DNA of 24,998 nucleotides from a virus: positions 1-24,998 of IMG/VR virus record IMGVR_UViG_3300028025_000469; one strand, written 5' to 3'. The notes beneath the pieces were generated by a model. It worked only from the letters and a program-made list of their open reading frames with translations. It was not told the DNA's origin and searched no databases. The position numbers were made by a program, and so were the translations under genes. Positions 2,693 to 18,659 of this stretch are shown here, piece after piece (position 1 is the first letter of the stretch; each line of letters starts with the position of its first letter).

Positions 2693-5170
2693 TTATGCTG
2701 GTAAATGTTTTACAGCTTTTGAATCTACGGCAATCTTTCCTTTGCCAATAGACTTTTTACGTCCCGCTTGAATGCGATCCATCATTTTATAAAGTGCCTT
2801 TGCTCCTGCATCTGTCGAGCCATTACCTAGTTCAGATACGATACGTGCAGGAATTACAAACTCATTATTGGCTAAACGTGCTGGCTGGTTGCGTCCAATT
2901 CTAGCTGGGATGCTGTCCGACACACCGTCTCCGGGGCCTTTGAGTAGCTGACCGCCATCAGAGTAGCCGCCAAGAGAACCTAAGCCGCCGCCAGCCAAGG
3001 CAGCTATACCGCCGTCAGCATAGACCTGTGCAGGGTGGAAGTTGAACTTGCCGTTCTTGTAGAAGTTTGATGGTCTAACACTACCGCCACGGGCAAACTT
3101 GTTATGCGAAACAAGGCCATCAGATATGTAGGTGTGCGCTTGGTCGATAGTCAGTTTGACTACATCCCCAGTGCCGATTTGCTCTAGTGAAGCAACAACT
3201 TTGAAACCTTCTGCGTTTACGTTTGGCGCAGTCTCAATAGCGTCGCCTTCTTTTAAGGCATCTACGCGCTTCCATTCCCGGTCAACAAGCAAAAACTTGT
3301 GGGAAAGGGATGTAGTGATTTCGCTGCCATCGGTAAACTTAACGATGCTCTTAGGCTGCTGGATTGTTTCTGCGTAAACAACTTCAAAGTCGCCATACTC
3401 AAAGGTGTCCTCGTGGAGCGTGTGTACAACATCACCGACCTTTAATGAGCCAGCCTGAACTTCAGAACCGTCAGCTAAAAGCACATGTGTTTTGGGGTCT
3501 ACGCAATCGCCGTCACCACCATAACCACCATAACCACCACCTTCGCCAACATCTCCACCAGCGGGACTTTGACCGGAATTACCGCCTGTTGGACTAAGAC
3601 TTCCGTCAGGATTTGATGAATAAGACTGACCGCCAGCCGCTATTGCGTTTGCTGTTGCTTGTGCATTTGCAGCATCTGTCATCGCTTGGTTTGCAGCAGC
3701 TTGGGCACTCGCTGCGGCTCCGGCTTGCTGCCCTTGTGCTGTTGCTGCATCTATACTCATTGGGTTACCAATTGAACCTGCACCTGTTTGTCCGGTAACT
3801 CCATAGCCTCCCGAACCTACGGGAGTTCCGTAGCCAGCACCGCCAAAGGTTGCTGGAGAGCTTGGGGGAGCGCCGAACATTTTCCCTGACGTATAGCCAT
3901 TCAGTGCTGCTTGCTGGGCCGCTGCTGATGCTGCACTAGCGTTTGCTACTGCTTGTGGGTTCATAGCTTGAGCTACTTGTTGTGCAATAAGCCCGCCGGG
4001 TAGTGCGCCACCTAATATATTTCCGTAAGTATCAACCAAGCCATACATTAAACCACCACTCATTGGACTAGAAAGAGGGCTTGAAGGCGCGGAATATCCG
4101 TCTCCTGTTTGTTCTCCGCGATCACCTCCTCCACCCCGATTAGCCGCAGCAAGGCGTTCTTGGTTAGCTTTATCTAGCGCAGAAATCCCAGAATCTGCAT
4201 CCGGAACCCAAATATAGCTGTTTGTAAGAGCATCAAGTATGTATTTCCCACCTTTACGAGTTCCGTAATCCGACGGCATTTCTGGGCCCTTTGTTGTTTT
4301 TTCTGTAAACGTCATTGGATTGGTTGATCCGGGTTTACCCATGAGGTAATCAAATGCTTTTTGTGAGTCTGAAACGGCTCCACCTTCAGCCATACCACGC
4401 GCAGGAACGCCGCCGTATGTTCCAACGGAACGACCTCCCCACTCTGATGTAGGAGTTGCGCTTTCCTGATATATCCGCCCGGTAACAGGATCACGCTTCA
4501 TTGTGCGGATATATCCCGGAGAAGGGTTTGCCTCTGGCCCAGAATCTTTATTGCCAAATGAGTCCATTAAAATTGGCGCTGCAAGCATTGCAAGACTCAT
4601 CTTGTTGTCTTTAAGGAAGTCCATAGGTGCTTTTGCTGCTGCGCTAAAACCTGTGCCAATATCAGGCTTGGATGCGGCTTGAATAGCTGCAACACGCTCT
4701 GTATCTGTCAGGTTTGGCATACTTGTGTCGTATTCTGCGTTTACTGCCCTAGCGTTTACACCAGCACCCATGTTTCCTAAGCTTTGGCTCAATCCTGCTC
4801 CGCCATAAGCACCCATACCAGCCATAATGCCCTTCTCAAGGCTACCAGAGGCCAAACCAGAGATTCCACCAACAGCAAGTGCTGAACCTACTTGGCTTGC
4901 TGCAGCACCCTCAAGACCAAACATACCACCTAACGCCTCACCAGCGCCGGGGAGGAAAGCATCAAGTGCGAATCCTGCGACTGCAGGTAGGATGTTTTCT
5001 AAGAAGCCTGCTTCAGGCAACCCTGTTTCAGGGTTAATGGTTAATGATCCGCCATGCGCCATAGCAAGAGCCTGAAGTCCTTGCACCTCTTTGGGTGACA
5101 TATGTACAAGCGTCCGGTCTGGGCCACGGCCTTGCGCCGCCATTTGGGTTGCTAGATTCTGTAGGCTCAT
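2693..5170 (-). CDS. Large Gly/Ala-rich virion protein with internal intein-like Hint domain
   Basis: The protein has 825 residues. The N-terminal part (about 55-135) is Gly/Ala-rich and hydrophobic, with alternating small residues that could be membrane-active. Residues 345-555 are low-complexity Gly/Ser/Ala/Gln. Residues 556-690 form a Hint (mini-intein) domain, listed separately. The C-terminal part (691-825) has several G-G-x-hydrophobic motifs (ARGGSV, YADGGIA, YSDGGQL) and a well-ordered block beginning GPGDGVSDSIPA (745-756) and including FVIPARIVSELGNGST (771-786) and KMMDRI. I recall that block as recurrent in phage structural proteins of unknown function. If the Hint domain is active, the product would be cleaved or spliced at residue 556 and/or 690. 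The position between gp10-like and ejection-like genes suggests a tail-tip or ejected protein. ATG at 5170 overlaps the previous stop as ATGA. Confidence 0.75.
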   Translation of the reverse strand: MSLQNLATQMAAQGRGPDRTLVHMSPKEVQGLQALAMAHGGSLTINPETGLPEAGFLENILPAVAGFALDAFLPGAGEALGGMFGLEGAAASQVGSALAVGGISGLASGSLEKGIMAGMGAYGGAGLSQSLGNMGAGVNARAVNAEYDTSMPNLTDTERVAAIQAASKPDIGTGFSAAAKAPMDFLKDNKMSLAMLAAPILMDSFGNKDSGPEANPSPGYIRTMKRDPVTGRIYQESATPTSEWGGRSVGTYGGVPARGMAEGGAVSDSQKAFDYLMGKPGSTNPMTFTEKTTKGPEMPSDYGTRKGGKYILDALTNSYIWVPDADSGISALDKANQERLAAANRGGGGDRGEQTGDGYSAPSSPLSSPMSGGLMYGLVDTYGNILGGALPGGLIAQQVAQAMNPQAVANASAASAAAQQAALNGYTSGKMFGAPPSSPATFGGAGYGTPVGSGGYGVTGQTGAGSIGNPMSIDAATAQGQQAGAAASAQAAANQAMTDAANAQATANAIAAGGQSYSSNPDGSLSPTGGNSGQSPAGGDVGEGGGYGGYGGDGDCVDPKTHVLLADGSEVQAGSLKVGDVVHTLHEDTFEYGDFEVVYAETIQQPKSIVKFTDGSEITTSLSHKFLLVDREWKRVDALKEGDAIETAPNVNAEGFKVVASLEQIGTGDVVKLTIDQAHTYISDGLVSHNKFARGGSVRPSNFYKNGKFNFHPAQVYADGGIAALAGGGLGSLGGYSDGGQLLKGPGDGVSDSIPARIGRNQPARLANNEFVIPARIVSELGNGSTDAGAKALYKMMDRIQAGRKKSIGKGKIAVDSKAVKHLPA
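3101..3505 (-). other. Mini-intein / bacterial-intein-like (Hint) domain inside the 825-residue protein
   Basis: The domain is 135 residues (556-690 of the host protein). It starts with Cys (C556, CVDPKTHVLLADG, block A), followed by LKVGDVV. Block B is SLSHKFLL with His624. The C-terminal blocks are HTYISDGLVSHN, ending His689-Asn690. These are the residues used for the N-S acyl shift and Asn cyclisation in Hint domains. It has no homing endonuclease insert. The next residue is Lys691, not the Cys, Ser or Thr needed for canonical splicing, so cleavage at one or both ends is more likely than standard ligation. The preceding residues are a flexible Gly/Tyr/Asp linker. Recognition is from motif order and spacing; activity is inferred. 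Confidence 0.87.
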
Positions 5171-5466: not shown

Positions 5467-7823
5467 TAACCACCCCTGCGACCGTCAGGCCGTACATCAA
5501 TACGTGGCGCACCTAACTGCCACTGGGTACCTAGCGTATTTGAAGTAATCCGCATAGACATCTGCCGACCACGAACCCGGATATTGACTTGCCCAGTAAA
5601 GGTGTCTAGGTCAATTGGGTATGTTTGCGTAGCTGTTACCGGCAATGAGGCTGTAGAGCTTGTACCACCGATTGACAGAGGGTTGTTATACCCAGAACCA
5701 GAGTTCTGCAACGGTAAAAGCTGCATAGTCAGGCTAGGTGTTGTTCCATCTGTAGAGCCACGGAAGGTTAAGTCAGGCAGCATACGCCATACAAACGCCA
5801 TGTTGTGCCCGTCACCAATGTCAAACTGAGATGTTGTGATACTAGTAACAATAGGTACAAGCGTAGCTAAAGTGCCGTCGTCTACACCACTCTCGTGATA
5901 GACCAAATTATTTACATAAGTAGCCGCAACAGGGTAATTCCGCAAAGACGAATCTAACCACGCAGTACGAGCCATACTACCGTAGTACCAAATATCTTCG
6001 CCATAGTTGTACACCACATAGCGGTCAATCGTTGTGCTATTTTCCGTGCAATAGAACCACCAGACTTCATTGAAGCCTTCATTGGTACTGGAAAATATTT
6101 GAGAGAACTGTGTACGGTTAATGTCGTCGTATACAAAGCGCAATAAGTCGCAGCGCAGTGTTTGCACCCGACCGTCATACTTGTAGAACTTATCTTGCCC
6201 CATCCAATACGCAGTGCCGTTGGTGTACGTTGCGGCGTTAAGGCCCACAATAGAGATGTTATCGCTTAGTAGTTGAGAACCCCAAACATAGGGTGGCCCA
6301 AGATACTGCAAGGAATATAGTGCTGAGTCAGTAAACACCAAAATCTCTTGGCGGGCTTGCAGTGCTGTCTGAATAGCAGAACCATGCGACAGGCGCAGGC
6401 TACCAGATTGGTTTGTAATTGCAGGTGTCCAGTTGGTAACGCTCTCTTGGTCAGACCAGCGAATCAGCATGGGGTCGTACACTGTGCTAAGGTAGTCGGT
6501 AGCACCAAAACAGAATGTAAACCGGCTGGCATCTGACACCAAAATTGAGTTTTGGAAGTCTGGAACGTCGCTAGCCCCAGCCAAAGATGACACAAGTACA
6601 GCACGGGGGGAAAGCGTTTGAACCCCCGACCCAGCGGAAGTGGTGTTTATAAAAGTCCCTGCCACATAATTTGCATACGTAGTGGACAGCTTGTAAGTAG
6701 TATCTGTAACGTATGTAACGTAATACACAGTAAACGGCACAAGGGGTAACGGCAACGCCCCTGTGGTCTCAAACATTATCACGGTACCACTTGGTAGGGG
6801 TGTAGTTGTATTGCTAGTTAAAGTAACAACCGCAGGGGTTGCATTAGAGATTGTTACCGTGGTGGGAAACAATACAGTCGGCGCTGTAGTGGCGTTCCAG
6901 TAGTACAAATGCCCCAGTTTTGGGCCAAGTATGAGGTTTTCACCAAAGTTATATTGGCTCCATACATTAAGGGTAGCCCGTGCATCGTATCCTAATCCGC
7001 CCCAGTTTCCACTACTCCATGAATTAGCGCTCCAACCAGCAGCGCTGGTAGAAATAGCCGAGCCGATGTGTAGTATGTACGCTGCATAGACTACGGAACC
7101 ACCCCCTGAACCAGAGGCGTTTGCCACGGTGGTAGCAGTTACTTGGTATGAGCTTGCTACTGGAGTAGCTGTAATAGTGGTAGAGGCGACAGTTTGTGAG
7201 GCGCTAACTGTATAAGTACCAGTTCCTCCGGTTCCTGTACCAAAGGCAGTAATCTTAGTGCCTGCGGTAACTCCTGTGCCAGTAAGCACATGCCCAACAG
7301 CTAAAGCACCACCAGAAAACGCCGTAACGGTTAGGGTAAACCCGGAGATACTCCCCGTGGTAGTTACAGTTGACAGCACTGTGGCTTCGTATTCTCCGTT
7401 AAGAGTTACGTTATTAACTGCTGTAGCCCCTGAAAAAATAACAAAATCGCCTGTTAGGGGTATGTAAGAAGCAGATACTACCGTAACCGAAGACGACCCG
7501 TTAATCGTTGTAAACGGGCTAGGTGAAAGTAGGTAGGTGCCTGATATTGGTGTAATGTCGGCGTATTGACCTGTCTGCTCAATGTAGAACTTTTTATCTG
7601 TGCCTACGCCTACAAGGTTTGCACCGGCTGTAGTAACCCAATTCCACAAAGATCGGCAGAGACCTATAAACGTATTAGCTGAAAGACGAGTCCACCCACC
7701 AATTTTCTCCGGTGTGCCCTGACGAAAACGAACCATCTCAGATTCATAATAGCCACCTTCGTTGGTGTAACGAGTGTTCTCGCGGTTAACACCGGGCTTT
7801 AGGACAACTTTTTGTAAGGGCAT
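5466..7823 (-). CDS. P22 gp10-like tail/packaged-DNA stabilisation protein
   Basis: This 785-residue beta-rich protein has an N-terminus ([20 protein letters not shown], then [18 protein letters not shown]) that I recognise as typical of the phage stabilisation family related to P22 gp10, which forms part of the tail hub below the portal and keeps packaged DNA in. The later parts, such as [17 protein letters not shown] and [17 protein letters not shown], fit the beta-propeller-like body of these proteins. An extra module at residues about 158-220 is almost the same as two copies in the tail fibre at 9942-11402. The C-terminus ends in an [12 protein letters not shown] tail. ATG at 7823 lies 18 bases after the endolysin stop. 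Family assignment is good; the exact position in the particle is inferred. Confidence 0.82.
7164..7352 (-). repeat. Inserted beta module shared with the tail fibre at 9942-11402
   Basis: Residues about 158-220 of the gp10-like protein contain [13 protein letters not shown] followed by [16 protein letters not shown]. The fibre protein at 9942-11402 holds two closely similar copies (about 10644-10835 and 10278-10469). The protein sequence is conserved although many third codon positions differ, so this is a functional protein module under selection rather than a recent DNA copy. Its function is unknown; Gly/Thr-rich beta structure suggests a surface-exposed decoration domain. Confidence 0.8.
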
Positions 7824-7841
7824 AGCTCATTTTCCCACGAA

Positions 7842-8270
7842 TCAGACAAAAGGTCGAGTACCTGATTTGTCAATGATAAGCGCATTCCCTCTGGGTTTAG
7901 CGGTTTCGGTGTTTGGGATGCTGATGTGCGTCCAACGGTCAAACTCACGGATGATCTGGTCATAGGGTAAACCCGCAGCAATTACCGCACGGACTACCTC
8001 ATCAGGGGTCATGCCGGGTACTCGTAGGTCAGCAGCGCAACCGTGACGGTGCTGGCTGGAGTCTTTGCTTCCCACTGCATCGTTGACCTGTTTACACCGA
8101 AAGGCGCTGTTAATCATTACAGGCTTGCCGCCAATGGCCTCTTTGACCTGCTCCAGTAGTTGCGCCAAGCGTTGCAGGTTGCTTATTTCTTCCTGTGTCG
8201 GGCTGTTGTCAAACTCACGATGGTCTGTGACAGTTAACTCGGCAAGGGTAAAGTGGGGTGAGAGGTTCAT
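7842..8270 (-). CDS. M15-family peptidase endolysin
   Basis: This 142-residue protein has the zinc peptidase signature S-x-H-x-x-G-x-A-x-D as SQHRHGCAAD (72-81; ligands H74 and D81), and E-F-D-R-W-T-H at 109-115, giving the catalytic Glu109 and third ligand His115. These match the M15 family (D-Ala-D-Ala carboxypeptidase / L-Ala-D-Glu endopeptidase), used by many phages of Gram-negative hosts as compact single-domain endolysins cutting the peptide stem. It has no signal peptide, so release would depend on the holin encoded just upstream, with which it overlaps by four bases (ATGA). Length is normal for the family. No cell-wall binding domain is seen. Confidence 0.92.
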   Translation of the reverse strand: MNLSPHFTLAELTVTDHREFDNSPTQEEISNLQRLAQLLEQVKEAIGGKPVMINSAFRCKQVNDAVGSKDSSQHRHGCAADLRVPGMTPDEVVRAVIAAGLPYDQIIREFDRWTHISIPNTETAKPRGNALIIDKSGTRPFV

Positions 8271-11411: not shown

Positions 11412-12380
11412 TTACTGTAAGTTGTCTATTGGTGTCCAGCCTGCGGCATCTGTTGTATCCACTGCTGTCCAGCCTGCTGTTTCGGGGTTGTTGATTACCG
11501 CCCAGTTCACAGTTTGAGCAGTGCTTAACGTGGCCCAATTTGCTGCTTCAGGGTTGTTGATAAGCGCCCAGTTTGCCGTCTGGTCGTCGATAATTTTAAT
11601 CCAGCCCGCTACCTCTGTATTGTCCAACAAATTGATGTTTTCAGCAATAACGGCTTGGAACGCGGCTTGGACGGCTGGTACGTCTGTAATACTGATATTT
11701 TCAATGACCGTGAAGTAAACCTCAAGGATGGCGGTCTGGGTTGCATCTACCCCAAAATTCTCCGTAACGTCCAAGAAGAACACAGAAATTATGGTGATGG
11801 CTTCAGTAACCGTGATGTCTTCGGTGATGCTGGCTACAAACTGGGCAGCAATGGTTTCGGCTTCCTCTAGCGTAACAGCCTCAGAAATAGCTACGGCAAA
11901 CTGCGCCGTCATAGCCCGTATGTCGTCTACGGCGATTGGTTCTGTAATGCTCTGTAGGAACGCAGACTGCTGGGTGTTGCTATCTTCCACGGTAAACGGT
12001 TCTGCACGGTCATTTAGCATTGCTGTGTAAACGGCTTGGCTGTCTTCGAGGATGATGTCTTCTGTCTGTGCTACGGAAAACTGGGCGGATATTAACGGGG
12101 TATCCGTTAAAACAATGTCTTCCGCTATAGATTGCAGGAAGGTAGATGCCTGTGCGCTGAAGTCGTCCAGCGTGATTGTCTCTGTAACGCTGCCAAAGTA
12201 GTTAGCCCCTGCGTCGTTGATAACGTCTGCTATGCCGATTGGCTCTGTGATGGATTGCAGAAACGCAGATGCTTGGGCGCTAAAGTCGGTTAAGGCAATG
12301 TCTTCAGAGATGGATAGAACGAATGCCGTCCCGCCAAGCGAGGCAAAGGATGATTGGGCAAACGCTGCTATTCCGAACAT
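11412..12380 (-). CDS. All-repeat virion protein (12 x 20 residues, then 6 x 11 residues)
   Basis: The 322-residue protein starts MFGIAAFAQSSFASLGG, an N-terminus I recall from phage structural proteins. From residue 20 it consists of about twelve 20-residue repeats with a leading aromatic or hydrophobic residue and an invariant Glu at 26, 46, 67, 87, 107, 127, 147, 167, 187, 207, 227 and 247; an Asp or Glu follows five to six residues later. From residue 260 it changes to an 11-residue repeat with Trp at 260, 271, 282, 293, 304 and 315 and recurring NNPE. No catalytic motif is seen. The acidic ladder could bind divalent cations. It sits among fibre genes, so a fibre shaft or adaptor is likely. 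Overlaps the previous gene as TAATG. Confidence 0.78.
   Translation of the reverse strand: MFGIAAFAQSSFASLGGTAFVLSISEDIALTDFSAQASAFLQSITEPIGIADVINDAGANYFGSVTETITLDDFSAQASTFLQSIAEDIVLTDTPLISAQFSVAQTEDIILEDSQAVYTAMLNDRAEPFTVEDSNTQQSAFLQSITEPIAVDDIRAMTAQFAVAISEAVTLEEAETIAAQFVASITEDITVTEAITIISVFFLDVTENFGVDATQTAILEVYFTVIENISITDVPAVQAAFQAVIAENINLLDNTEVAGWIKIIDDQTANWALINNPEAANWATLSTAQTVNWAVINNPETAGWTAVDTTDAAGWTPIDNLQ
11415..12323 (-). repeat. Tandem peptide repeats: 60-base period then 33-base period
   Basis: Bases 11604-12323 encode the 20-residue repeats (60-base period, one or two units longer by a residue). Bases 11415-11603 encode the 11-residue Trp repeats (33-base period). The spacing of the key Glu and Trp residues is nearly exact, while other positions vary, which indicates old repeats kept by selection. 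Confidence 0.88.
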
Positions 12381-12955
12381 TATTCGTACAAGATGTTGAT
12401 AGAGCCAGCATCGAAGGTGTCAGTGCCGTTGACTGTGGTGAGGCGAACCCTATCCAACACCCCTGCAAGGTCAATAGTCCCTATTGCGTTAAAAATACTA
12501 TCAGAAGCAGGGCGAGAAAATAAACCTGTAATTGACCACTTGTTGCTACCCAACAGAGTTAGCGTAAAAGCCCCGCCCAATATGGCGGCTGCGTTATCTA
12601 TATTGATGCCAATACCAGATGTGTAAGCTGCAATTGTTACCGCTGCCCCGTTTGTAAAGCGAGCACCAGACCCTAGATACCCGGTACTAGTAATACTTCC
12701 ACTTCCCAGTTGTAATATCCAATTCGACGACCCACTAGTACTTACCCCATTTAGTATTACAGTAACCCGTTTCACCCATGATGGAATTCCAGTGAAGTTA
12801 ATAGCTGTACCGCTAGTAGACGCAACAGCAGTGCCAGACGTAATCACGCTTGCGCCCATTACTGGAGTCCCGTTAATTGTTGGGCTGGAAAGGGTTGGGC
12901 TGGTTATTGTTTGCCCAGAGGCTATCAGTCCCCCTGCTACTTGTGTTAAAGCCAT
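12380..12955 (-). CDS. Tail fibre tip-like protein, paralogue A
   Basis: This 191-residue beta-rich protein has a short N-terminal helix/strand part ([20 protein letters not shown]), then SGTAVASTSGTAINFTGIP and SWVKRVTVILNGVST. It ends with DRVRLTTVNGTDTFDAGSIN and ILYE. It is a clear paralogue of the protein at 15108-15653: both share the SGTAVASTSGT entry and the NGTDTFDAG C-terminus, but differ in the middle. I recognise the family as frequent in uncultured tailed phages beside fibre genes. Conserved ends with a variable middle suggest a receptor-binding head with exchangeable loops. Its start ATG at 12955 shares a base with the stop of the 49-residue gene upstream. Confidence 0.75.
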   Translation of the reverse strand: MALTQVAGGLIASGQTITSPTLSSPTINGTPVMGASVITSGTAVASTSGTAINFTGIPSWVKRVTVILNGVSTSGSSNWILQLGSGSITSTGYLGSGARFTNGAAVTIAAYTSGIGINIDNAAAILGGAFTLTLLGSNKWSITGLFSRPASDSIFNAIGTIDLAGVLDRVRLTTVNGTDTFDAGSINILYE

Positions 12956-15107: not shown

Positions 15108-15653
15108 TTACTCGTAAAGAATATTGACTGTGCCAGCATCGAAGGTGTCTGTGCCGTTTACAGTGGTAAAACGTACACGATCAAGAGTGCTTGCGGTTGT
15201 TTTATTACCGGTTATCCAGCCGGGATTACTTGCCGTAGATAGCGCATATTGAGCCGTGCATACCCATAAATTTGACCCAATAAGCGTTAAAACATACCAT
15301 CCACTTGTTATGTCTGCGGCAGCAGTTTGGTATCTATCAAAACCAGCAGTAGATGTACCGTTTGCAACACCCATAACTGTCGAAGTGCTTGTGTAGCCAG
15401 TTGTTTCTACCGAACCACCGCCAATTTGAAGTCGCACAGGGCTTGTGCCATTTGTACTAACACCAGCAAACATCACAGTGACCCGTTTAACCCAAGACGG
15501 GATGCTGGTAAAGTCAATGCTAGTGCCTGATGTTGAGGCGACAGCAGTTCCAGATGTAAGAACTCCCACGCCCGTAGGCGTACCAGCAATTACAGGGCTG
15601 GTTAAAGTTATTGGTGCGTTTAAACCTGCCTGACTTATTGTGCTGATAGCCAT
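15108..15653 (-). CDS. Tail fibre tip-like protein, paralogue B
   Basis: This 181-residue protein is paralogous to the one at 12380-12955. The shared start is SGTAVASTSGTSIDFTSIP and SWVKRVTVMFAGVST; the shared end is NGTDTFDAGTVNILYE. The middle (about 75-155) differs almost completely and contains aromatic residues (GFDRYQ, SGWYVLTL, LWVCTAQYA). Similarity is visible also in DNA, over the 3' ends near 15113-15185 and 12385-12455. The gene follows a clear AAGGA and the only small gap (25 bases) in this part, which holds nothing I can name. Likely receptor-binding or fibre-cap protein. Confidence 0.75.
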   Translation of the reverse strand: MAISTISQAGLNAPITLTSPVIAGTPTGVGVLTSGTAVASTSGTSIDFTSIPSWVKRVTVMFAGVSTNGTSPVRLQIGGGSVETTGYTSTSTVMGVANGTSTAGFDRYQTAAADITSGWYVLTLIGSNLWVCTAQYALSTASNPGWITGNKTTASTLDRVRFTTVNGTDTFDAGTVNILYE

Positions 15654-15678: not shown

Positions 15679-16038
15679 TTAGGTGTTGACCGTAGGTTTG
15701 GCAAAGGATAACGGGTCTACGCCTTTGGGAATGGTGTCTGGGTCAATGATGTCCTCAACTTTATCCCCAAAACGCAGTGCATGTATGCAGTAAACAACCG
15801 TGCCGTCTATCAACGCTGTAAATTCGTGGACTTTGTCCTTCTTAATGTAGATCATGCAGGGGGCTGAGAACGCTGATTCCTGCCCGTCAACTATGCACTT
15901 GACACCGCCGTATGCCAAAAGTGACAGGTGGTCAAATGGGTGGGTATGCCCAACCTCAATGTCCCCGGCATGTTCAAAGTACATCTGCCGTGAGTACAGG
16001 TTTGCTACGCAGCCAAGAGATATTTTTGGGGGGTTCAT
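15679..16038 (-). CDS. Small cupin-fold protein
   Basis: This 119-residue, single-domain cupin has the first motif G-H-T-H-P-F-D-H (30-37; metal ligands probably H31, H33 and D36 or H37) and a G-containing strand after it (AYGGVKCIVDG). The second motif includes VHEF (70-73), with H71 as likely last ligand. Cupins of this size bind a metal and may be enzymes, sugar isomerase-like proteins or sensors; nothing here identifies a substrate. It overlaps by ATGA with an oxygenase-like gene that itself overlaps an aspartyl hydroxylase-like gene, making a three-gene set of double-stranded beta-helix proteins within the fibre region. Confidence 0.8.
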   Translation of the reverse strand: MNPPKISLGCVANLYSRQMYFEHAGDIEVGHTHPFDHLSLLAYGGVKCIVDGQESAFSAPCMIYIKKDKVHEFTALIDGTVVYCIHALRFGDKVEDIIDPDTIPKGVDPLSFAKPTVNT

Positions 16039-16520
16039 TTTTTGGTTATTTCCGTTACTTGTTCCATAGGTACTAAAGCGCCGTAAGAGAAAATTACCCG
16101 CTCCCCACCAAACATAGGGGTAGAGCCGTGTTGCTCAAGGCTGGCTAAAACAATCCACAGGTCGCCTATCTCAACCTCAATGCTTTCTTCGCCAAACAAC
16201 GGCATACCGCCAGTCGTAGGTTTACGTAACATAGTGTTACAGCGTACATGTGCAAAACCCTCTGGGGCAGTATCCTGATGCATGTGCGTGTGTACGCCAT
16301 CAATGTAGTGGTTGCCAGTAAGTATCTTAAATACAGGTTCTACGCTGTGGGGTTTAAGACCAAAGGCAGCGAACGCATCTTCAAAACCATCAGCCTTTTC
16401 CCGCATGGAATACCTACGACCAAAGCCGTTAGGGTGCCAAATATCTGTTTCCAGCGCCGTCTCTATGTGTCTGCCAGTAGCCCAGCCTTTGCGGACTCGC
16501 CCAGCAGCTAGGTCAATCAC
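16035..16520 (-). CDS. 2OG-Fe(II) oxygenase-like protein
   Basis: This 161-residue protein has HTHMHQD (77-83), giving an H-x-D pair (H81, D83), a distal His in LEQHGSTP (H131), and Arg in GGERVIFSYG (R141). That spacing fits the iron- and 2-oxoglutarate-binding double-stranded beta-helix. It is small for the superfamily and its N-terminal part (1-60) has no clear relatives to me. Substrate unknown; phage members of this group are common near tail genes in aquatic phages. Start is GTG at 16520, chosen because GTGA overlaps the previous stop exactly. The reaction would be hydroxylation with release of succinate and CO2. Confidence 0.75.
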   Translation of the reverse strand: MIDLAAGRVRKGWATGRHIETALETDIWHPNGFGRRYSMREKADGFEDAFAAFGLKPHSVEPVFKILTGNHYIDGVHTHMHQDTAPEGFAHVRCNTMLRKPTTGGMPLFGEESIEVEIGDLWIVLASLEQHGSTPMFGGERVIFSYGALVPMEQVTEITKK

Positions 16521-17053
16521 AGCCTATCCCCATAGACATTGATAATTAGGTGTACTCGGTCTTCAGTAGTACTTTGGTTCCACGCAGAATGCCAACGCAC
16601 ATTATCTATTTCCACCGCCTCTCCTAGAGGCATTTCTATTGTTTCGTAGTCAATCTCGTAGCAAGCCAGCGGGTTAGTGACTAGTGGTATGTGGACACGG
16701 TGTATGTCTTCAAGGAATGGCGTTATATCTGCATGTCTATTTACATGAGAGCTTGGTTTAAGCCTTGCTAGCAATGCCACATAGTTTGTTACATCATAGT
16801 AGATACGCAGCCAGTCAATGATCGGTGTAAGCACGGACTCATATTTGCCAAACAGCGGCTGATTCTGTATATCCTCTGTAAGATATGACTGAGCATGTCG
16901 AAATACCATCGAGTCATATTGCCCTTCGTGCGAAATCATCGACTTACGCCAATCAAGAACAAGCCAGTCTAGTTCCTCAATGGTGTTTATGAAGTTCTGT
17001 ATTAGAACATCTGGAACTTGCCCAAGAATAATGTGTGTTGTATCAAGTTTCAT
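16517..17053 (-). CDS. Aspartyl/asparaginyl beta-hydroxylase-like 2OG oxygenase
   Basis: The protein has 178 residues from ATG at 17053, chosen over an ATG 33 bases upstream because it gives the usual ATGA overlap. The core reads LLARLKPSSHVNRHADITP (94-112), with H107-x-D109 as iron ligands, followed by HRVHIPL (118-124), a distal His in RWHSAWN (H155), and EDRVHLIINV with R166 as the likely 2-oxoglutarate-binding Arg. This order is that of the Asp/Asn beta-hydroxylase family, whose members hydroxylate Asp/Asn side chains or free amino acids. The phage target is unknown. Adjacent fibre proteins are plausible substrates but that is speculation. Confidence 0.83.
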   Translation of the reverse strand: MKLDTTHIILGQVPDVLIQNFINTIEELDWLVLDWRKSMISHEGQYDSMVFRHAQSYLTEDIQNQPLFGKYESVLTPIIDWLRIYYDVTNYVALLARLKPSSHVNRHADITPFLEDIHRVHIPLVTNPLACYEIDYETIEMPLGEAVEIDNVRWHSAWNQSTTEDRVHLIINVYGDRL

Positions 17054-17355
17054 AGTGTTACAGATGGGATATAACCCCATGTCCAAGACCGTGTGTCTAA
17101 AACCGCCATTGGGTGCGGCTTGGGTTCGTAAAAAACATCATTCTCTGCATCGTATATAAAACCAACTCCAGCAAAGTTTCCTCTTAACGCCGCGCCACCG
17201 TCTGGCTGATTGTCAACACCGTAATGCACACCCATACGTGTGTTGTATGAAGTTTGTATCCATAGGTCTTTATCTGGTAGTGTGTCAATAAAGTCCTGCT
17301 CGGCAACAATAACCGTGTCTACTACGCCGTCAACAACCCGTGCAAAATGGCTCAT
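17050..17355 (-). CDS. Conserved small fibre-region protein
   Basis: This 101-residue protein has MSHFARVVDGVVDTVIVAEQ at its N-terminus, WIQTSYNTRMGVHYG in the middle, and YDAENDVFYEPKPHP near its end. I recognise these blocks from small proteins encoded near the tail fibre genes of cyanophages and other aquatic phages; the same blocks also occur as a domain in larger proteins. No function is established as far as I know. It is soluble, acidic and aromatic-rich, with no enzyme motif. It is tied by ATGA overlaps to the Gly-rich fibre before and the aspartyl hydroxylase-like gene after, so it may be a fibre accessory. Confidence 0.78.
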   Translation of the reverse strand: MSHFARVVDGVVDTVIVAEQDFIDTLPDKDLWIQTSYNTRMGVHYGVDNQPDGGAALRGNFAGVGFIYDAENDVFYEPKPHPMAVLDTRSWTWGYIPSVTL

Positions 17356-18659
17356 GCTGTGTATGTCCCAGAAGTTAAGAAGGTGTGGTACGAGTACCCG
17401 CCAGAAGATGAGTAAGTTCCGCCAGTTCCTCTTTGTGCGCCAAGATAGCGAATTATGACAATACCAGAACCACCACCGCCGCCTAAGAAGTTACCTACAT
17501 AGACGCTGCTTGCTCCAGCGCCGCCGCCGCCACCTCCAGTATTAGGAGAACCAGCCGTTCCTGAAGTGGCTGCATACCACCCCCCAAGTCCACCGCCACC
17601 GACACCACCAGAAGCGCGTGATGACTGGTTGCTATAAGAACCGCCACCACCGCCACCGCCGTAATATGTGCTGTTAGGAGCCCAAATTGTCCCTGCTCCT
17701 CCAGCACCGGGTGAGCGATTACCTGCATTAGTACCTACAGCACTATCGCCACCGCCACCGCCAGCGGCCCAAGTATTAGCACCACCGGGGCCATTCCCGC
17801 TCCCTGATGCATTTGCGGCAGTTCCAGCCGCTGCGGTAATGATAGTTGAAATGCTAGATGCAACTCCTGCATTGGTGGCAGAAGTAGACCCGGTACCACC
17901 TGCGCCGACAGTTACCGTATATGCTGTACCTATAGCAGCAGTCCAAGCCGCTGTTAAAAGGCGACCGCCGCCGCCGCCAGTACCTGCAAGGTTAGAAGGA
18001 GTGCCTGACCCACCGCCACCAACAACAAGATATTCAGCCGCGTAAGTGTATGAGGCCGACGTAGTGAACGATGTAGGGGTTGAATATTCTGACCATTCGT
18101 TAGTAACACTATTCCTATACCGTACTCTCCAGTAGTACAAAGTGCTAGTACTTATTCCGCCAAATGGCTTGGTAAAAGTAGATACAGCACCTTGGTTGCC
18201 GCTATCGTAAGCCGTTGTAGCAAAAATGGGGCTTGTAGATATTTGCCATTGGCTATTACTTTGTGGGTACGAATACAACGCATAGTACGCTGTGGCAGTC
18301 ATAGCTACAGGGTCTTGTACCAAAGTTGCCCCTTGAGCCGGGGTTATGTTGGTCGGGGATATAACTATTGGTAAGGTAGTCCCGCCGCTGGTTGCGATAA
18401 CCTGAGTTATTGGACTTGTGTAGTACACATAGATATTGTTAACCCCTGTCAGCGGAGCAGAAGTGAACGTGATGGTGTTACCACTGACTGAATACGCCGA
18501 ACTAGGGTTCTGGGCTACGTTATCAACCGTGACCTGTATCTGCGCTACAGACGCAACTTGTCGAGACAATGTAAACGCCGTAGTAGAAGCGTTACCATTG
18601 AAATAATCAATGGCTGGTGTAAACGCCTGTGTAATATTGGTGTTGCCTATAAAAGCCAT
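17352..18659 (-). CDS. Gly-rich tail fibre/adhesin with IGNT-type anchor and Fn3-like domain
   Basis: The protein has 435 residues. Domain 1 (1-88) has MAFIGNTNITQAF, FTLSRQVASVAQIQV and SGNTITFTSAPL, matching the anchor of the fibre at 14055-15104. Domain 2 (about 95-200) ends LYYWRVRYRNSVTNEWS and FTT, like a fibronectin type III fold. From about 210 the sequence becomes Gly-rich: EYLVVGGGGSG, several runs of five to seven Gly, and IVIIRY near the end. Such regions in T-even-like adhesins form polyglycine II-type layers with exposed loops that decide receptor choice. The loops between Gly runs are the likely variable part. The C-terminus has YHTFLTSGTYT. Confidence 0.85.
   Translation of the reverse strand: MAFIGNTNITQAFTPAIDYFNGNASTTAFTLSRQVASVAQIQVTVDNVAQNPSSAYSVSGNTITFTSAPLTGVNNIYVYYTSPITQVIATSGGTTLPIVISPTNITPAQGATLVQDPVAMTATAYYALYSYPQSNSQWQISTSPIFATTAYDSGNQGAVSTFTKPFGGISTSTLYYWRVRYRNSVTNEWSEYSTPTSFTTSASYTYAAEYLVVGGGGSGTPSNLAGTGGGGGRLLTAAWTAAIGTAYTVTVGAGGTGSTSATNAGVASSISTIITAAAGTAANASGSGNGPGGANTWAAGGGGGDSAVGTNAGNRSPGAGGAGTIWAPNSTYYGGGGGGGSYSNQSSRASGGVGGGGLGGWYAATSGTAGSPNTGGGGGGAGASSVYVGNFLGGGGGSGIVIIRYLGAQRGTGGTYSSSGGYSYHTFLTSGTYTA

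Follow-up and report, generated by a model that had tools for sequence, protein, structure and literature searches.

In the minus-strand tail-fibre cluster of the IMG/VR virus record IMGVR_UViG_3300028025_000469 (24,998 bases, analysed whole and referred to here as the window), three consecutive genes for proteins of the double-stranded beta-helix (DSBH) type, A (16517..17053), B (16035..16520; a putative member of this type) and C (15679..16038), follow the gene for a small tail-region protein, G (17050..17355). Sequence comparison across relatives shows that what recurs at this locus is the cupin C immediately after the gene for a small tail protein, with B as its partner and A as an optional addition. 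The best functional clue lies in the C-terminal peptide that these small proteins carry: a small tail protein with an [I/L]P-x-x-x-[L/I] end is encoded directly before a four-histidine cupin or one to three genes ahead of it. An earlier note, made from the letters of the window alone, had described A, B and C as an enzyme triplet among fibre genes; its interpretation is partly supported, in that the three DSBH-type proteins do lie in the fibre cluster and their link to fibres holds, and it overlooked the peptide.

A cupin behind small tail proteins

Single-sequence scans with A and B against IMG/VR, and with A and C against GenBank phages, returned no relatives save one weak match to B, and profiles were therefore required. 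Profile searches yielded 79 A loci, 13 B loci and, after selection, 80 C loci, to which about 160 loci gathered via G and a conserved structural gene were added (individual loci are cited below by L numbers). No relative was confirmed in a scan of bacterial genomes with the cupin profile, which used a single narrow pattern and leaves absence unproven.

When C is taken as the starting point, it stands directly behind a gene of 60-170 codons in 62 of 75 cases and overlaps its upstream gene by exactly 4 bases in 29 of the 75, and the large genes ahead of the small gene and C are mostly tail-fibre family matches. B is the next gene in 17/75 cases and lies within three genes downstream in 22/75; viewed from B, the cupin is immediately upstream in all 13 B-query loci, several of which are near-identical and thus represent fewer independent cases. 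The closest relatives of the window, L003-L005, carry the genes in the order G-C-B and have no A, and together with the neighbour survey they disprove the A-B-C triplet as a conserved module. The cupin, which the earlier note had singled out as the unusual third member, is instead the most regular element, whereas relatives of A adjoin G or C in just 7 of 55 cases. As a separate observation, the L198 gene at 4405-5004 and the gene after C in L219 (174 residues) encode a cupin-like motif, HPNP...HEHPGVE, and adjoin C in both phages.

C-terminal peptides match cupin classes

The small genes before C belong to several unrelated families, but many of their products have like ends (IPVNIL, IPVSQL, LPITRL, LPTVTL, LPASVL, IPRSIL, IPVTKA and VPVTVIGE). 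In the window, the translation of G ends in YIPSVTL, with the IPSVTL codons at 17053..17070 on the minus strand, and a tail profile built with G left out gives this end a score of 9.3, higher than that of 99.88% of 7431 control open reading frames (ORFs). A second and shorter class of cupins, of about 93 residues, is preceded by proteins that end in GAQTL or similar (GxQTL). Among the 51 cases that could be sorted by loose patterns, 7 short cupins go with a QTL end, 44 long cupins with an end of the IPV type, and none is crossed (Fisher p 8.6e-9, a value to be read as optimistic). Furthermore, one small-protein family occurs twice each in L199 and L200, with GAQTL before the short cupin and EIPxSIL before the long one.

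Homologues of G without a cupin mostly have an end region of the W-D-E-x-x-x-x-W-V type and no tail. The tail profile trained without G separates G proteins that accompany C from those that do not, with an area under the curve (AUC) of 0.90 when C-terminal extensions of at most 7 are allowed (p 2.8e-6) and of 0.76 when they are limited to at most 3 (p 0.0016), both p-values again being optimistic. A further candidate, at 13367-14235 of L136, combines a tail-like IVPNTQVL end with a following 174-residue protein that looks by eye like a histidine-less cupin; the C profile does not match it, and we do not claim it as a member of the series.

A, B and C conserve their metal ligands

The ORFs of A, B and C are all intact, and the residues listed in the earlier note are correctly placed. 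In non-redundant alignments of relatives, from which all ligand counts are drawn, H107, D109, H155 and R166 of A are invariant (55/55), H81, D83, H131 and R141 of B are each present in 33/34 sequences, with the count for H81 biased by overlap with the search pattern, and C retains H31, H33, H37 and H71 in 75/75, where the same bias applies to H71; the other named positions are unbiased. H37 is a fourth histidine, missing from a ligand list that was otherwise right. Such near-invariance exceeds what chance motifs would give and bears out the proposal that the metal ligands are kept, and from these conserved ligands A, B and C are very likely metal-binding and functional.

C (119 residues) is supported as a metal cupin, as far as family knowledge reaches. 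Its AlphaFold 2 (AF2) model, with a predicted local distance difference test (pLDDT) score of 75.5, adopts a cupin fold that matches KdgF (Z 13.2, root-mean-square deviation 2.0, 87 aligned; Foldseek 3.1e-6), and the predicted viral structures nearest to it belong to uncultured Caudovirales phages. The match to Cupin_2 (PF07883) is weak, at 15.2 bits and 0.017 for the window protein and 23.8 bits for that of L003, both below the 27.2 cut-off. Compared with small cupins, the C profile finds KdgF (2.9e-6), CelOCE (1.9e-5) and TM1459 (0.014); all have the fold in common with C at about 20% identity, and the histidine spacing of C presumably agrees with that of TM1459. Unlike these proteins, C represents an apparently phage-specific family that is coupled with tail proteins.

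A (178 residues from its ATG) matches PF05118, Asp_Arg_Hydrox, at 49.3 bits and 6.2e-13 and passes the curated cut-off of 22.6, which supports its assignment as an Fe(II)/2-oxoglutarate (2OG) oxygenase as far as knowledge of the family extends. Against structures, its profile ranks L-proline cis-4-hydroxylase (4p7w, 8e-12) first, followed by proline 3-hydroxylase (1e5r, 3.7e-5) and, more weakly, a bacterial beta-hydroxylase (7v4f, 7.5e-4) and AspH (5apa, 0.1). A is thus nearer in sequence to the enzyme that acts on free L-proline than to AspH, and membership of its family does not imply the hydroxylation of fibre Asp/Asn residues that the earlier note suggested. A has the HxD...H...R core in common with 4p7w, 1e5r and AspH; it is also much shorter than 4p7w (292 residues), with only the DSBH part aligned, at 4p7w residues 81-185, and the remainder missing. 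Its length rules out a full-length, two-part L-proline cis-4-hydroxylase of about 290 residues, and an LpxO-type lipid A hydroxylase was likewise rejected (NCBIfam NF033391, 18.1 bits against a cut-off of 500).

B (161 residues, GTG start) belongs to an unregistered family: none of 20 members has a Pfam match, and comparison of 20 sequences with the PDB gave no relevant match. Its motif, HxD...H...R with GG in between, supports an Fe(II)/2OG oxygenase. Set against the profiles of A and of PF13640-type phage oxygenases, B lines up in the motif columns at low probability, with E values of 2.3e-4 (44%) and 1.6e-3 (16%), and the AF2 model of B failed (pLDDT 35.6). At 2901-3419 of L211, a B protein finishes in a stretch (EALEDNTVFINVFADGKS) that looks like the final strand of the short cupins and matches the C profile at 2.5e-5, perhaps a recombination scar.

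An enzyme slot behind G

G (101 residues; phrog_7759, 2.2e-16) has homologues that head enzyme genes in unrelated phages. In the slot behind them, L010, L021, L035, L048 and L079 have one or two PF13640 oxygenases, L060 has two such oxygenases and a sulfotransferase-like gene, L044 has a sulfotransferase beside a PF05118 member, L025 has, at 6370-8197, a methyltransferase and a tryptophan halogenase (PF04820, 5.7e-38), and L115 has a cupin, B and two PF13640 oxygenases. Of 59 G genes, 15 are followed within three genes by one of the A, B, C or PF13640 type, as opposed to 35 of 517 other genes (p 3.6e-5). Among contigs with G, PF05118 is rare (2/50) compared with PF13640 (15/50).

Databases already contain annotated runs of oxygenase genes behind tail fibres. 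In Synechococcus phage S-RSM4 (NC_013085), three annotated 2OG oxygenases stand directly behind the G homologue, with another two farther along, and in Pelagibacter phage HTVC023P (MN698239) two follow the G homologue, with one gene between. Both phages resemble the window in that a small G follows the tail genes and is itself followed by several short oxygenase genes; they differ in that neither has an annotated cupin, PF05118 member or B, and their G proteins are without the tail peptide. For the cupin-B pair and the peptide-cupin pairing, no description was found in the literature searched, which covered cupins with tail fibres and hydroxylated virion proteins and took in few subscription journals.

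Proposed function and alternative explanations

From these sequence relationships we lean, at somewhat less than even confidence, towards reading the cassette as a set of accessory enzymes within a receptor-binding (tail-fibre tip) operon carried by an uncultured tailed phage, where C would dock on or modify its partner peptide and B and A would oxidise the tip. During late assembly, C would bind the small tip protein, here G, at its C-terminal peptide and would then either hand that protein to the oxygenases or modify it itself; B and, in the phage of the window, A would act as Fe(II)/2OG oxygenases on the tip protein or on a neighbour of it, and the resulting hydroxylation could mature or tune the host-recognition tip through its folding, stability or specificity. 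A broader version, which we hold to be possible if doubtful, is that the IPVTxL and GxQTL ends are modular peptide tags on interchangeable, unrelated tip proteins, each read by a cognate metal cupin that would cap or chemically mature the tip with 2OG oxygenases (B, A or PF13640 members) as helpers; such a tag system would amount to a post-translational modification system dedicated to receptor-binding proteins.

2OG oxygenases are common and unexplained in aquatic phages. The pairing of cupin and tail protein puts forward a definite candidate for the partner or substrate, namely the peptide at the C-terminus of a tail-tip protein, and what was loosely called an 'auxiliary metabolic gene' thereby becomes a case that can be tested. 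Should the peptide be bound or modified, host recognition would, in many uncultured phages, require a maturation step that current annotation misses, and the combination of tail type and cupin type could aid the annotation of many unnamed tail genes.

Several results weigh against an accessory role at the tip. In 47 of 75 cases no oxygenase and no other enzyme of this set follows the cupin, so that C cannot depend on B or A, and in 24 of 75 the preceding protein shows neither tail pattern. Relatives of A are also encoded at a distance from fibre genes and within a cluster of glycan type. At extension 0 the G tail test loses its signal (AUC 0.53), because G tails often carry short extensions. 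Finally, the tail patterns were defined post hoc, their discovery and their testing drew on overlapping data, and the G cases represent few lineages, which is what makes the p-values of the peptide comparisons optimistic.

An unlikely but serious rival for A and B is that the enzymes decorate a glycan or receptor, with their target, a sugar, a lipid or an attached group, on the host surface or in a fibre glycan; their linkage to fibres would then follow from the need for a receptor change to match receptor recognition. In other phages the slot behind G indeed holds sulfotransferases, a glycosyltransferase and, side by side, a methyltransferase and a tryptophan halogenase, and at 477-8845 of L266 (also in L278, L279 and L286) a sulfotransferase-PF05118 fusion, a relative of B, a second sulfotransferase and two further 2OG enzymes occur with a different cupin, a carbamoyltransferase, a PfkB kinase and an epimerase. 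The L266 cluster resembles cyanophage clusters of 2OGFeDO, cupin DSBH, halogenase and carbamoyltransferase genes for which capsule decoration or a secondary metabolite has been proposed (PMC7824862), and it is this likeness that makes glycan chemistry a serious contender. The window is similar to those clusters in its mix of enzyme types, but it has no sugar, carbamoyl or halogenase genes and its cassette sits inside a fibre operon. Sugar genes are likewise missing from the G-C-B relatives, the cupin of L266 belongs to another subfamily (E 0.015 against the C profile), and the match between C-terminal peptide and cupin class suggests that the partner of the cupin is a protein.

Somewhat less probable again is a purely structural cupin, in which C would be a virion protein that caps the fibre tip or serves there as an adhesin, anchored by the C-terminal peptide of its small partner, with a metal site that serves stability or receptor contact rather than catalysis and with B and A as separate matters. 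CENP-C cupin domains, which to our knowledge are not enzymes, match the fold of C as well (Z 12.6), and C stands alone behind a small tail protein in many phages. In addition, C has a weak match to phrog_12032, 'short tail fiber protein' (0.001), and a protein of a tail operon in Variovorax phage VAC_51 (CAI3971407), annotated as a short tail fiber protein, has a cupin-like HxHxH by eye. Four histidines retained in every one of the 75 relatives nevertheless go beyond the usual need of a scaffold, and the coupling of C to the oxygenase-like B also speaks against a structural part alone.

The peptide itself could be a by-product, with the cupin gene travelling together with the last codons of its upstream gene, the site of its ribosome-binding region. 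The exact 4-base overlaps noted above are what such hitch-hiking would leave, and tails that end in IGE or IG contain GGAG-like bases. We regard this account as quite improbable, since tail codons show synonymous variation at every position, with all four proline codons in use, and the tail is kept on the small protein when other genes separate it from C, as in the window, L248 and L254. Both features argue for selection on the tail peptide, at the level of these sequences, as opposed to mere hitch-hiking.

Last, an auxiliary metabolic role, in which the enzymes would lower 2-oxoglutarate or alter host metabolism and their fibre location would be incidental, is hardly probable: this reading (PMC9602691) has little support here, the present results hold no specific evidence for an effect on the 2-oxoglutarate level, and both the recurrent placement behind G and small tail proteins and the B-C pairing stand against it.

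Layout of the locus and flanking genes

The long, late-type genes of the window lie on the minus strand. Within the cassette, the genes overlap by 4 bases at G/A (ATGA), A/B (GTGA) and B/C (ATGA), as described for A, B and C in the earlier note, an arrangement that usually reflects coupled translation. The statement that the three enzymes lie between fibre genes is right for the cluster as a whole and needs adjustment at both edges: the gene directly 5' of A is the small G, with the fibre gene one further upstream, and a 25-bp gap follows C before the next fibre gene. The upstream tail-fibre gene (17352..18659, minus strand) encodes a glycine-rich domain (PF21722, 3.7e-17) and matches phrog_18673, a tail fiber protein, at 1.4e-11. 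Downstream of the cassette, the fibre-type gene at 15108..15653 on the minus strand matches phrog_29482 (2.2e-6), a family of unknown function, and has a counterpart at the same position in L003-L005.

Two minor observations concern other genes on this strand. The fibre-type gene at 15108-15653 has a C-terminal stretch, TVNGTDTFDAG[T/S][V/I]NILYE, in common with the one at 12380-12955 (minus strand), and the underlying DNA is 82% identical over 60 bases; L005 has more copies of the TVNGTDTFDAG stretch, as if fibre genes had been duplicated and re-headed. The 825-residue protein encoded at 2693-5170 (minus strand) contains an intein/Hint-like stretch at residues 585-646 (CVDPKTHVLLADG...SHNK), which matches PF14890, Intein_splicing, at 2.1e-6, under the Pfam cut-off.
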